In this document: positions 33,944-61,445 of the stretch, in pieces | How positions within the stretch are numbered: position 1 is the stretch's first letter | Layout: every line of letters begins with the position of its first letter | Assembly (NCBI RefSeq): GCF_963665355.1 | Contig: NZ_OY762229.1 | Coordinates: 5,306,001-5,370,000, forward strand | Source of the DNA: an uncultured Desulfobacter sp. | GTDB taxonomy: Bacteria; Desulfobacterota; Desulfobacteria; Desulfobacterales; Desulfobacteraceae | DNA: 64,000 nt | Direction of reading: 5' to 3' | The notes under the pieces: generated by a model | The model's database searches: none | The model's input: the letters and a program-made list of their open reading frames with translations, nothing else | Told to the model about the DNA's origin: nothing | Translations under genes and position numbers: made by a program

Positions 33944-34064
33944 ACACTGGTCGGACCTGGAATTTCAGATTGGTTCTCACTGCCGTTATCCCATGGGTCC
34001 TAATATGTAATCTGTTGTAGTAATATCTTCACATCAAAGTATCTAAATTTATTCGTGGAAAAAA

Positions 34065-37042
<2,978 letters not shown>

Positions 37043-37398
37043 CTATTCCACAAATAAGTTTAAACGCTTTGATGTTTTTCGGAAATTTTGTGAATTTCGG
37101 CGTTGCTACGCGTCAATTTTAAAACGGAGTAGTCTACTACACCTTATTTAAAATTGTCGCTTGCGCCTTGAACTTCACTAAAATTTCCTTCAACATAGCT
37201 GGAGTAATCAATTTGCATTGATCACACCTTTTATATTTTTAGTTGATCAGGTGTTCATTAACACCGTTTCAACAACGCTATTGATATTTACTACAACAAA
37301 TTGTCAAAGAGCAATGAGAGTGCGGCTACTTTATTCGCCGGTTTGATCTCTCAAAGTTGGTCAGTGAATCCAAAAAGAGCTTATTTATTCTTTCCTTT
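37043..37398 (-). other. 16S-23S internal spacer without tRNA genes
   Basis: About 355 nt between 16S and 23S. No tRNA-Ile or tRNA-Ala cloverleaf is present, unlike many rRNA operons. A boxA-like antitermination element (TGCTCTTTGACAA on the minus strand, 37301-37313) is visible. Confidence 0.8.
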
Positions 37399-56807: not shown

Positions 56808-57360
56808 ACGGCTTTGAGGTTTTCCGCCGCGAGAGCGGCTTTGTTCAAGTGTGCCGGGCAATCTGCCCCAAAGATGAGGGAAGGCCCCTCGGAGCCGCCT
56901 TTCAGGAGGAGGCTTCAAACCACCCTGAGTTGCTGTGGTTAAGAGCCATGGTAATGAGCGTCAGGGGAAAAGGCATGAGAAACATGTCAGGTATGGATCA
57001 AGGAGACGAACGTAAGTGAACCATTGATGAGGTGTCGAAAAACCGAATATTGTCGTCAAAACCGGGGTGCTTGAACTATCCCGGGATGAGATCGGAGGGT
57101 GCCTGATGATTGTCCGATCGGCGACCGGCATAGAGATGGCGTGAACTTGACCCAGGCTTTGGGATGGAACCCGGGAACCTGTCACATTGATGTTAAGGAA
57201 GCGATTCAAGCAGCGGACCTGTGAGAATCTGAGTACCGATGCAATGTACAGGGGCGGAGTCACCCGTAATAGTGATGAAGGTGCTGTAATGGCGCTGGAG
57301 CGAAGGGGTGGCATTGTTCAGCTTTACCTTTTGGTCAACTGGAATTATAGGAGGAACTGA

Positions 57361-57785
57361 TTGGGAGAAGCAAAGTCATTTGATATTTCTAAATTGGCGG
57401 TATGGGATGCTTATATCCGGGTAAAACGCAATGATGGCGGAGCCGGTGTGGATGCAGTAAGCCTTGAGATGTTTGAGGAAGATCTTGAGAACAATCTTTA
57501 CAAGATCTGGAACAGAATGTCCTCGGGGAGCTATTTCCCACCTCCTGTCCGAACAGTCTTGATACCCAAATCGGGCGGAACACGGACCCTTGGCATTCCA
57601 ACCGTGGCTGACCGAATTGCACAGATGACAGTCAAATTGTATCTGGAGCCGGAATTGGAACCGGTATTTGATGAAGATTCCTACGGGTATCGTCCGGGGA
57701 AATCTGCATTGGATGAACTCAATGCAACACGTAGTCGTTGCTGGCAGTTTGATTGGGTTTTGGATCTTGATATCAAAGGCTTCTT
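57361..57785 (+). pseudogene. ltrA: Group II intron reverse transcriptase/maturase, 5' part
   Basis: Start TTG at 57361 behind AGGAGGAAC. Residues 1-140 contain RT0-RT2: KRNDGGAGVDAVSL, YFPPPVRTVLIPK, TVADRIAQMTVKLYLEP, DSYGYRPGKSALD and WVLDLDIKG. The open frame is cut at TTCTT (57781-57785), inside the FFD of the catalytic LDIKGFFD motif. It continues at 60544. Confidence 0.9.
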
Positions 57786-57812
57786 GGAGCCATCGTCATA
57801 CTGCACATCCTT

Positions 57813-60026
57813 TCATGAAAGTTGATTAAAAAGATCCAGCTGTTTGTCTATTACCTTAATATATAAGCCCATTTGTTTTCCTTTGCGCACATGGACAGCA
57901 GGTAGCTTGCCGGATTTTACACGATGCAATACCGTTTGGCGTGAGACACCGAGTAATTTTTTAGCCTCTTTCATGGTGACATAACCCTCGGGAGGCTGTT
58001 GAACGAAGCGGGATTTTAAATCCTCTGTCATCCGAATACGCCACGGGGCTCCTGGTGTGATTTGCTCTCCGGCAATAAAGCCGTCCAAGAGCCAACGGTG
58101 GACTGTTCCAGAGGCGACGTCAAGAATTTCAGCTGCTTTTTGAACGGTTACCAGTTCACCTTCATCAGGAGAAACACTCGTTGGATCAAATTTGGGGATA
58201 TTCCAGTGCCGACGTAGATTGCCAACCCTGTTTGCTGTAAACCTATGACCTCGGGCGGTCTGTCTACCCTGCCTGTTTAAAATACCAGCAATCATTGCAT
58301 CATTATAATGCACTGCAAGACGGCGCACAAGATCAATGGTGTCTTGTGCGGTTCGGATCGTTGGCGAATTTCTTTTCGGAAGGTCCATATCAATTTCAGT
58401 CACTGCATCTGTCTGCCATCGTATAATCAGGTGGGCAGTATTCAGGGTTCGATCAACACTGATATTCACCTCTTGCAATAAAATTTGAAGCAATTCTTTT
58501 TTGTCCCGGTACGTCGTCGTTGGAGCCTGCCAAACCAGCTTTATGTCTTTACTGAGCGTATGGATATGATCACGTTGTTCAGGTGTTAGCGCTTCCGGAC
58601 GTTGTCTTTGACATTGTTCAAATTCATTTTTTGCGGCTTGAAGTTGGTGAAGACATGTTTCCCATTGATTCTCAAGCGTGCGGGCAACCAGACGATTTTC
58701 CGGTTCGACTGCTTGGAAACGACGTTCTGCTTTATCTGCTTCATATTGAAGCCGTTCAATATGTAACCGCCATTGATTTAAAGCTGCGTCATGTTCAGTT
58801 TTAATGTTCTTTTCGGCGAGCAAGATTGCATCCATGACAGCAGGTGTAATCGTATTCAAGAAGGTGTCGGCAACTACGGTGTCAATTTTTACACCTCCGA
58901 CACGCATGCAGTATTTTGCCCGGCCTTCTACAATGTTGTTGGTAGCACAATAGTATCCGGGGCTGGAGTTCTTTCCTTGGTAATATACTTTGAGCCTACG
59001 TCCACATTTCCCACAGGTGGCAAGTCCTTGCAGCAAAGCCGCTCCTTCTCTGACGGCACCAGTGGTTTTATGAGGTACCGGCCGAGTATTTTTAGCAATT
59101 CGGGCTTGATTCATTTCATAGGTCTTCCAGTCGATAAACCCTTTGTGATGGTCATGGATTAATACCGCCCATTGGGATTGAGATAACCGCTTGGTACGTT
59201 TTTTAACCTGGCCGGTTTCGTCGATAACGTATTCTTGTTTTGTTTTACCATAGGTATAAGCCCCGGCATATACAGGATTCGTCATAACAGAATGGATTGC
59301 ATGGTAGCTGGCCGTCACCCATTTAATTTCCGGAAGAAGGATGGTTTGCAACGGAAATAATAATTTGTTTGATCGAAACCATAGCCATACTTGCCGGACA
59401 GACCCCATATGCGTAAATTTTTCAAAAACAGTATGAATGGCTCCGGTAACGGCCTGGTCGGGATGCATTAAAACTTCTCCATCCTGATCACCCCAGATAA
59501 AGCCGACCGGCAGCCCCCGACGCAACTCCCCTTTGGCAGCTTTATTCCGTATACCACCTTCTAATCTTGCTCGAATGACATGAAGTTCTGCCTCGGCCAT
59601 AGTACCTTTCATGCCCAGTAAAAGTCTGTCATTAAAAAGCCCCGGATGGTAGAGGCCGTCACTGTCGCCGATAAGTGTGTTGGTTACGCTGCACAGATCA
59701 AGTAATCTGTACCAATCAGAGTTGTTCCGTGCAACCCTTGATACCTCAATCGACAGGATTAAACCAACTTTTCCAAGGGCGACTTCTGAGATCATTTCAC
59801 CAAAACCTTTACGTTGTGAAGTACTGGAACCGGATTGAGCCAAATCTTGATCAATTATTCGAATTTGTCGTTCTGTCCAGCCCAGATCAACTGCTCTGTC
59901 CTTGAGTTTGTACTGCCTTTCAGTGGATTCTCGATTAAATTCGACCTGGGCGGCGGTTGACTGTCTGATATAAATATAGGCGGTCCGTTGCAAGTGGTCC
60001 GGCTTAATTTTTTGATTATTCATCAT
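57813..60026 (-). CDS. Large serine recombinase
   Basis: A 737-residue recombinase. The N-terminal resolvase domain has YIYIRQST with nucleophile S23, SRVARNNSDWYRL, and the E-helix MKGTMAEAELHVIRARL. The recombinase domain (about 170-300) is followed by a zinc ribbon (CGKCGRRLKVYY) near 340 and a coiled coil near 420-470. The C-terminal region holds two HTH/excisionase-like domains (VQKAAEILDVASGTVHRW and MKEAKKLLGVSRQTVLHRV). Its stop is only 28 bp from the left element end. It should catalyse attP/attB integration and possibly excision. Intact. Confidence 0.93.
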   Translation of the reverse strand: MMNNQKIKPDHLQRTAYIYIRQSTAAQVEFNRESTERQYKLKDRAVDLGWTERQIRIIDQDLAQSGSSTSQRKGFGEMISEVALGKVGLILSIEVSRVARNNSDWYRLLDLCSVTNTLIGDSDGLYHPGLFNDRLLLGMKGTMAEAELHVIRARLEGGIRNKAAKGELRRGLPVGFIWGDQDGEVLMHPDQAVTGAIHTVFEKFTHMGSVRQVWLWFRSNKLLFPLQTILLPEIKWVTASYHAIHSVMTNPVYAGAYTYGKTKQEYVIDETGQVKKRTKRLSQSQWAVLIHDHHKGFIDWKTYEMNQARIAKNTRPVPHKTTGAVREGAALLQGLATCGKCGRRLKVYYQGKNSSPGYYCATNNIVEGRAKYCMRVGGVKIDTVVADTFLNTITPAVMDAILLAEKNIKTEHDAALNQWRLHIERLQYEADKAERRFQAVEPENRLVARTLENQWETCLHQLQAAKNEFEQCQRQRPEALTPEQRDHIHTLSKDIKLVWQAPTTTYRDKKELLQILLQEVNISVDRTLNTAHLIIRWQTDAVTEIDMDLPKRNSPTIRTAQDTIDLVRRLAVHYNDAMIAGILNRQGRQTARGHRFTANRVGNLRRHWNIPKFDPTSVSPDEGELVTVQKAAEILDVASGTVHRWLLDGFIAGEQITPGAPWRIRMTEDLKSRFVQQPPEGYVTMKEAKKLLGVSRQTVLHRVKSGKLPAVHVRKGKQMGLYIKVIDKQLDLFNQLS

Positions 60027-60541
60027 GATCCACTTCCCTGGTTTGATTTGTTTTTTTCAAGTAGACACATTTGCTGACAAGACGTGATAGAACAGTTATG
60101 ATTTTTTTCTTCTGTTGAAGATTGAGACTGTTCCAGATTTCTTGAGTTTTCTGCTCCTCCTGATCGGGCCAAAGTTCCAATTGCTTTTGCATGATTATGT
60201 CCCTCCTTTAAAGCGATTTCAGATTGCTGCTTTGGAGGATATATTTTCAGGAGAAGGGTATCTACTATCTTCCGTACCTGTAGTAGGTTCGATCTTGAGG
60301 CAATTAGATCCGTCTGTTTCCGGTTGTCTGGTGGTTTGAATTGGGGGCAAATGTCACCCAGATTTGTCCAATCAGCAGGTATATAGGATCTCGTGCCATC
60401 AGGTAAAACCAGGGTCAAATGTAAAATCCCATTTCTGTGAAGCCAACTGAGGACATCAAGGGCTTTTCCCTCCAATGGATGAAAATTTTTTGTTATCGTT
60501 ACTTTAGGCGGAAAACCGTCGAGGTGGGTAGTGTGTCGTGT
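60023..60541 (-). CDS. DUF5372-like accessory protein of the recombinase element
   Basis: Up to about 170 residues are encoded within the element. HPLEGKALDVLSWLHRNG, LTLVLPDGTRSYIPADWTN is the DUF5372 pattern that accompanies serine recombinases. The C-terminal half is polar and low in complexity. There is no conventional start codon in the element for the conserved part (a TTG at 60475 is possible), and the frame stays open across the element edge into the antisense of the RT gene, which is probably chance. Function unknown. The stop overlaps the recombinase start. Confidence 0.6.
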   Translation of the reverse strand, partial: TRHTTHLDGFPPKVTITKNFHPLEGKALDVLSWLHRNGILHLTLVLPDGTRSYIPADWTNLGDICPQFKPPDNRKQTDLIASRSNLLQVRKIVDTLLLKIYPPKQQSEIALKEGHNHAKAIGTLARSGGAENSRNLEQSQSSTEEKNHNCSITSCQQMCLLEKNKSNQGSGS

Positions 60542-60543
60542 GT

Positions 60544-61371
60544 TTCTTTGATAGCATTGATCATGATCTGATGATGAAAGCGGTATGTTTTCATACGGAT
60601 TGCAAATGGATACGGCTTTACATTGAGCGGTGGTTGAAAGCACCGGCGCAAATGCAGGATGGTAAACAGATGGCGCGGCATCTCGGCACACCGCAGGGTG
60701 GGGCCATTAGTCCTTTGTTGGCCAATCTGTTTCTGCATTATGCATTTGATGCATGGATGAGAAGAACCTATCCCGGTGTACCTTTCGAAAGATATGCCGA
60801 TGATATCGTTATTCATTGCAAGTCTGAAGAACAGACATTGGCCATCCACAGAAAGCTGAAAAAACGGATGACAGCCTGCAAGTTGGAACTTCACCCAGAG
60901 AAAACAAAGATCGCTTATTGCAAGGACGCCAATCGGCCTGGCAATTATGACACGGTCAGTTTTGATTTTCTTGGGTATACCTTCCGGCCGCGCATGTCCA
61001 AGAATCGATGGGGGAAATATTTTGTTAACTTTTCCCCAGCCATCTCCCGGAAGGCGGTGGTGCGAATCTTTGGTGTCATACGTGACTGGCAGTGCAATAG
61101 CCGGACACCTATGGACTTGGAGGATCTTGCAGAATTTGCAAATCCAGCAATTCAGGGATGGATCAACTACTATGGAAGATTCTGTCCATCTGCTCTGCAC
61201 AACCTGATGATGCATTTAGACCAGAAGCTTGTGAAATGGGCCATGCGGAAATACAAACGGTTTAGATTTCATGAAAAGAGAGCAACACATTGGTTGGGAA
61301 GAATCGCACACCGTGAGCCTGGCATGTTTGTTCACTGGAGATCTGGATATAAACCATCGACTGGACAATAA
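60544..61371 (+). pseudogene. ltrA: Group II intron reverse transcriptase/maturase, 3' part
   Basis: Continues the interrupted RT: FFDSIDHDLMMK, LGTPQGGAISPLLANL, and the catalytic YADDIV in FERYADDIVIHC, then LELHPEKTKI, and the maturase region FDFLGYTFRPR with NPAIQGWINYYG. The C-terminal end is RKYKRFRFHEKRA and there is no HNH endonuclease. All RT catalytic residues exist if the two parts are joined, giving 415 codons. Confidence 0.9.
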
Positions 61372-61445
61372 GAGCCGTATGAATCGAGAGGTTCACGTAC
61401 GGTTCTGTGAGAGCCTGAGGGGGAAGGTCCCTCGGGCTACTTGAC

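Follow-up and report, generated by a model that had tools for sequence, protein, structure and literature searches.

A 64,000-nucleotide stretch of contig NZ_OY762229.1 from an uncultured Desulfobacter sp. (positions 5,306,001 to 5,370,000, hereafter the window) contains a group II intron whose reverse transcriptase (RT) gene is interrupted, inside the codons for LDIKGF^FD (the caret marks the insertion point), by a 2,763-bp element (57784-60546) that encodes a large serine recombinase. Comparison with relatives indicates that this is very probably an element whose target attachment site (attB) is the DNA that encodes, in group II intron proteins, the RT active-site motif D-[IL]-x-x-x-F-D. At the level of sequence, the comparisons establish the exact position of insertion, a common core, a fixed orientation, independent repeats in very diverged RTs, and empty copies of the target. 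The element is a parasite of a parasite, breaking the RT of its host intron in cis.

The two parts of the window RT adjoin at position 78 of the Pfam RVT_1 profile, and the C-terminal part resumes at the second Phe codon (60547-60549). The reading frame of the N-terminal part continues into the element, where it meets a stop at 57825. Pfam and Rfam searches place the host among the group II introns, with intron RNA on both sides and both an RT and a maturase domain present (Table 1).

Close relatives of the element interrupt the same RT codon

Relatives of the recombinase were sought in genome_contigs, 395 genomes of the phylum, 86 of the family, 385 of the class of one relative (L006), plasmids, phages and viral contigs. 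Six loci in genome_contigs carried a recombinase 73-95% identical to that of the window. Plasmids gave 537 matching records, of which the best 20 listed were 52-59% identical and the next 20 listed 36-39%; loci with flanks were fetched from 19 of the 20 best-listed records (without H5 and without seven records at 60-80% identity), and further copies within the same plasmid records were added. Among phages 155 records matched, all below 60% identity and none covering 80% of the query, with no close relative among them, and viral contigs yielded no pattern match to the recombinase. We defined the close clade by a recombinase at least 50% identical over a stretch of at least 300 amino acids. This gave 36 places, or 35 after removal of L185, which shares a contig with L007; the count likewise omits three fragments (L013, L184 and L190) and, in the window's own genome, the decayed copies L191-L193. 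The close clade received a support of 100/99 in a tree built from 52 dereplicated recombinases, where its 16 rows comprised 14 insertions in RT motif A, one in a DDE_Tnp_1_4 transposase gene and one in another target.

Data showed that 28 of the 35 close-clade places are group II RT genes interrupted at the same codon, in the GGCTTCTTTGAT region, as expected from an earlier note, made from the letters of the window alone, which had proposed that the recombinase targets a conserved stretch of the RT. Five others are genes for DDE_Tnp_1_4 transposases, which we take to be IS1380-like, and two are other genes. The relatives' loci are labelled Thermodesulfobacteriota, Pseudomonadota and Myxococcota. 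Group II RNA, of several classes, was found in 21 of the 24 loci scanned, with none in L006, L008 and L044.

When both junctions were read, the core dinucleotide TT was recovered at 31 sites (25 in RT genes, four in DDE_Tnp_1_4 genes, L009 and L010); L007 extends just four bases past the core on the C side. At each of the 25 RT sites the insertion falls directly before the Phe of a D-[ILV]-x-x-x-F motif. RT halves also abut in the truncated copies L118 and L119, and one-sided reads place L149 in an RT gene and L117 in a DDE_Tnp_1_4 gene of the same type. Of the 31 two-sided sites, 28 have cores 2.69-2.88 kb apart, with L051 shorter and L042 and L046 longer, and the recombinase is antisense to the RT in all 18 cases identified by a strict BLAST test. 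Clustering at 95% flank identity reduced the 31 two-sided sites to 26 clusters, 22 of them RT, so that the 25 two-sided RT sites represent 22 distinct targets. That 22 distinct RT targets should all be entered at one codon is far beyond chance.

Insertions are independent and precise

Compared pairwise, the RT fragments from 21 sites are 35% identical at the median, and 189 of 210 pairs fall below 50% (L054 and L116 are identical). Elements that are 98.4% identical (L045 and L050) lie in RT genes without DNA similarity, and others that are 99.6% identical (L146 and L048) have RT flanks only 71-74% identical. The elements of L009, L010 and L011, at least 99.7% identical, occupy three unrelated targets, and two elements on one plasmid, 100% identical, sit in an RT gene (L150) and in a DDE_Tnp_1_4 gene (L238). 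Since elements 98-100% identical are found in targets without DNA similarity, these alignments lead us to conclude that the insertions are independent and that the element moves on its own.

Natural empty sites are present in two congeneric genomes, G807 and G808, which have the same intron at 98-99% DNA identity with its flanks joined without an insert. The empty-site RT of G808 (L231) is open over 415 residues, matching the 415-codon RT that removal of the insert had been predicted to restore; in the empty site of G807 (L232) the C-side match spans only 650 of 901 bases. A further genome, G806, contains an element 97.5% identical to that of the window in an intron 65-72% identical in DNA. 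This intron has one copy with the element and four without; the empty copies are 100% identical over the ~1.8 kb compared, and the flanks of the occupied copy abut in them with a 2-bp overlap. On the evidence of these empty sites in G806, G807 and G808, insertion is, at the level of sequence, precise and conservative, with no loss of bases, and the site-specific, conservative integration put forward in the earlier note is thus upheld.

The other two intron copies listed for G806 are L182 (occupied and chimeric) and L235 (rearranged, left out of the analysis). At L182 (G806 C6 211500-221700) the element connects the N-terminal half of one RT to the C-terminal half of another, the halves being 39% and 63% identical to the window RT. 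This chimera probably arose via recombination between two inserted elements, and element insertions may in this way shuffle RT genes.

The host of the window has been visited by the element more than once. Its genome contains three right ends, namely that of the window, L192, after which an RT frame follows, and L193, and recombinase remnants are also present.

Attachment sites and a proposed route of integration

Both ends of the element are conserved among relatives, and only TT is regularly common to both junctions across sites. This TT begins the codon for the second Phe in LDIKGFFD, five residues after the catalytic Asp of RT motif A. The attP sequence shows dyad symmetry centred on TT, with 14 of 25 positions matching in the window (one of 2000 shuffles was as good) and 11-16 of 25 across 16 distinct attP sequences (0-56 of 2000 shuffles as good). 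Outside the 2-bp core attP and attB are dissimilar, and this, together with the imperfect attP dyad, is a trait of large serine recombinases. TTCTT, which had been taken for the common core, is partly a coincidence: the junctions of relatives and the attP symmetry reduce the real core to TT. At the DDE_Tnp_1_4 sites, L010 and many RT sites, GAYATY lies nine bases before TT and GA one base after the core, and in some RT sites GAYCTN takes the place of GAYATY.

TT at both ends could also be the 2-bp target duplication of a DDE insertion sequence. The attP symmetry favours a recombination core, however, and Pfam detected no DDE domain in the element, which does not fit a DDE insertion sequence.

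We propose that the recombinase itself would catalyse integration via a free circle, in which the dyad-symmetric attP (..GGGTAGTGTGTCGTGTGTTYC-TT-GGAGCCATCGTCATACTGCAC..) would be joined to attB at the dinucleotide TT, leaving the element genes antisense to the RT. Excision would require an accessory factor, possibly the product of a 58-amino-acid open reading frame (ORF) or the DUF5372-like protein (Table 1). Such a site would be advantageous, as selection on the RT would keep the target constant in many genomes, and host genes would be spared because the insert sits inside a spliced intron.

Alternative explanations

Several observations weigh against an attB defined by the RT motif. Five of the 35 close-clade places are DDE_Tnp_1_4 genes, in which the insertion point is a look-alike, LDIDDT^FD. 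L009 lies in a gene that resembles a transposase, read in the other sense and weakly matched by Pfam, and its site misfits the DNA motif; L010 lies in a coiled-coil gene. By itself the strict BLAST test recovered 18 of 36 rows with RT halves that abut, the others resting on the junction reading, and of the three right ends in the genome of the window, L193 is not followed by an RT frame. We abandoned the notion that the recombinase recognises RT genes as such, given that the DDE_Tnp_1_4 look-alike sites are used too; since near-identical elements also occur in LDIDDT^FD, the recombinase seems to read DNA.

If a single old insertion had been inherited with the intron, the common position would reflect common descent of the composite. 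Near-identical flanks do occur in four groups of sites (L052/L238/L239, L054/L116, L146/L237 and L147/L150), each possibly one event; however, the presence of near-identical elements in dissimilar targets (L045/L050, L146/L048, L150/L238), together with the empty sites, contradicts common descent of one insertion, and we give this account almost no credence. A recombinase of relaxed specificity might instead insert widely, the insertions in introns being the survivors. This would accommodate the places outside RT genes (L009, L010 and the five in DDE_Tnp_1_4 genes), and introns tolerate inserts. Yet survivorship would scatter insertions along the RT and over both strands, whereas the insertion is at one codon in all 25 two-sided RT sites and the orientation is fixed, and the DDE_Tnp_1_4 sites themselves resemble the RT site in DNA; relaxed specificity is accordingly highly improbable.

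We also consider it very unlikely that the element spreads mainly inside a retrohoming intron, with RT supplied in trans, even though it lies in the ORF region of the intron with RNA matches on both sides and two composites share one plasmid (L054 and L116). In that pair the element is 100% identical and the wider flanks 89-97%, yet the N-side flank is identical over its first 360 bp, which makes the case ambiguous, and in the other pairs the element moved without the intron. Lastly, intron and element could cooperate, with the element acting as a reversible mobility switch that a signal causes to excise. The insertion is precise and antisense, and the empty copies illustrate that the RT frame would be whole again once the element had left. 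Against this, the decayed copies L118, L119, L149 and L191-L193 fit parasitism better, and intact intron copies can coexist in one genome (G806), so that a switch appears unlikely. The related suggestion that intron mobility would stay off until excision agrees with an RT frame broken in place, but intact intron copies such as those of G806 could supply RT in trans.

Genes of the element and its surroundings

The features of the window are listed in Table 1. The earlier note's description of a divided RT, a serine recombinase on the minus strand and, upstream of it, a DUF5372-like frame is confirmed; its count of two genes only had missed a third, the 58-amino-acid ORF.

Table 1. Coordinates of the split RT, the inserted element and associated features (window positions, except in the last row)
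Feature	Position	Strand	Basis or remark
Host group II intron; block common to empty copies in G807/G808	56847..61445	+	Alignment start 56847, end 61445 in L231; Rfam matches
Intron RNA upstream of RT, group-II-D1D4-2	56876..56992	+	Rfam RF01999, 118.8 bits
RT N-part, residues 1-141, ending ..VLDLDIKGF	57361..57783	+	Pfam RVT_1 positions 1-78
attL, core TT at 57784-57785	57754..57815	+	Junction comparison
Inserted element, 2,763 bp crossover to crossover	57784..60546	-	Genes antisense to RT
Large serine recombinase, 737 amino acids	57813..60026	-	Pfam Resolvase, Recombinase, Zn_ribbon_recom, C-terminal HTH_17
58-amino-acid ORF, AAAGGAGGG ribosome-binding site, overlapping recombinase start	60016..60192	-	Strong ribosome-binding site
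DUF5372-like match	60356..60496	-	Pfam PF17342, 21.3 bits vs 25-bit cut-off (sub-threshold)
attR, core TT at 60547-60548	60517..60578	+	Junction comparison
RT C-part, beginning FDSIDHD, with maturase domain	60547..61371	+	Pfam RVT_1 positions 78-205 and GIIM
Intron RNA 3' end, Intron_gpII	61370..61445	+	Rfam RF00029, 59.5 bits
Tyrosine recombinase trio element (elsewhere in the genome)	L274 1402-4855; L276 809-4280

The Resolvase, Recombinase and zinc-ribbon domains of the window recombinase all exceed the Pfam cut-offs, and the closest solved sequence is that of the SPbeta YokA recombinase (E 1.9e-10). DUF4368 was not matched in the recombinases scanned with Pfam. Recombinases of the close clade have a C-terminal extension with HTH_17, present as two stretches in the window protein, and Pfam did not find HTH_17 in two scanned relatives that insert at a second RT motif (see below); the extension may have a role in target choice. 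A small ORF at the place of the 58-amino-acid ORF is annotated as a hypothetical protein in several relatives, and its position makes it a candidate accessory or directionality factor. The DUF5372-like match sits in an open frame (60023-60535) upstream of the recombinase, the start codon of which is uncertain; the Pfam match to DUF5372 is strong in two distant relatives.

Upstream of the intron, between 51134 and 56795, the window contains an IS91-type transposase, an AAA and rve gene pair and a tyrosine recombinase. This cluster of mobile genes sits between two ribosomal RNA operons.

Sister lineages insert into other mobile-element genes

The survey of sister lineages is much weaker than the close-clade census, with abutting halves of panel proteins in 12 of 71 sister places. 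Abutting halves revealed a second RT motif as target, around residues 77-84 of the window RT (L055 and L057), as well as IS66 transposases, interrupted at about residue 443 in L105-L108, L114 and L244 and at residue 454 in L060. The former six insertions adjoin the ERAIR motif of the IS66 transposase, which we take to be its catalytic Glu region. In Nostoc (L056), annotated RT pieces lie on both sides of the element, the C piece beginning at residue 79. Targets assigned from one side or by eye are IS66 TnpB, IS21-like rve genes, IstB, an IS91 zinc domain, IS110 and other DDE transposases; the L058 group (IS66 TnpC) and the L109 group (IS66 TnpB) were assigned by eye. In one-sided Pfam searches, 10 of 11 sister flank peptides matched a transposase or insertion sequence protein family (the rve match of L098 is below the curated cut-off), in a biased sample, the 11 having been hand-picked from 24 translated sister loci and the other 13 left out. 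The flank of L121, on pNGR234a, matched HTH families alone.

On a Mesorhizobium sp. AR07 plasmid (NZ_CP080528.1), L247-L249 are inserted, again judged by abutting halves, at residue 126 of serine recombinase genes of the same broad family. Here, the recombinase family preys on itself.

We lean towards the view that DUF5372-associated serine recombinase elements form a guild of hyperparasites, in which the lineages would each have evolved attachment to a different enzyme of mobile elements, at codons that are conserved and often catalytic, so that the constraint on the victim's protein would keep the DNA target constant. The targets proposed as part of this same view are RT motif A, an RT motif in the LGIP region (Cupriavidus, Paraburkholderia and probably Nostoc), the IS66 transposase near ERAIR, IS66 TnpB, IS21-like rve, the IS91 zinc domain and the serine recombinase fold.

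The window's genome (G000, C2 ~1.695-1.721 Mb) also contains an unrelated element with three tyrosine recombinase genes, presumably RIT-like, which splits two different RT genes at a further conserved motif, GTPQGG (Table 1). In the same genome, seven RVT_1 fragments further downstream have their first match at profile position 121-122 and two have their last at 123-124, a pattern that suggests repeated hits at the GTPQGG site.

Relation to known elements and significance

Plasmid pNGR234a carries a DUF5372 gene (33989-34258) and a related large serine recombinase gene (35174-37258), which we take to be NGRIS-4 of Sinorhizobium fredii NGR234, genes y4bA-D. Perret and colleagues are said to have reported in 1997 that all nine NGRIS-4 copies lie in other insertion sequences. 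In NGRIS-4, as in the element described here, a DUF5372 gene precedes that of a large serine recombinase, and the two recombinases belong to one family (the DUF5372 match of the window being sub-threshold); unlike the present element, NGRIS-4 has extra genes, a recombinase that is ~36% identical and belongs to another supported clade (L121), and a target other than RT motif A. We know of no report of site specificity on catalytic coding motifs for NGRIS-4. Elements of the Tn5053 family insert at res sites and those of the IS1111-attC group at attC, using DDE or related transposases and targeting recombination sites. They too are mobile elements specialised for entering other mobile elements, but their target is not the sequence coding for the catalytic site of the victim.

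As described in PMC10083194, site-specific large serine integrases target genes for prolyl isomerase, magnesium chelatase/ATP-dependent protease and competence proteins. These integrases share with the present element a serine recombinase, a 2-bp core and a conserved coding stretch as attB; the targets there are host genes, whereas the victims here are mobile elements, and the terms 'reverse transcriptase' and 'group II intron' do not occur in the main text of that paper. The same paper describes multi-targeting serine recombinases with DUF4368, which have a small core, TT in one example, and several entry places. They resemble our element in being small-core serine recombinases and differ from it in their relaxed sites, set against a narrow coding motif and no DUF4368 match here. 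In a search limited to open-licence literature, including passages of PMC10083194, PMC8919778, PMC7920277, PMC4339197 and PMC10970691, no serine recombinase element with RT genes as its target was found described. The kind of element, a serine recombinase element that inserts into other elements, is known; its target and its recurrence across bacteria look new.

The att pairs are delimited, some with natural empty sites, which opens integration and excision to direct test, and such recombinases, whose targets in RT genes can be predicted, could serve as tools. About 30% of 1,949 representative group II intron proteins are incomplete, according to PMC8919778, and some of the interrupted RT genes that group II intron surveys encounter may be due to insertions of the type described here. 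By reading the DNA for the active site of another selfish element, a selfish element would secure a target that does not drift.

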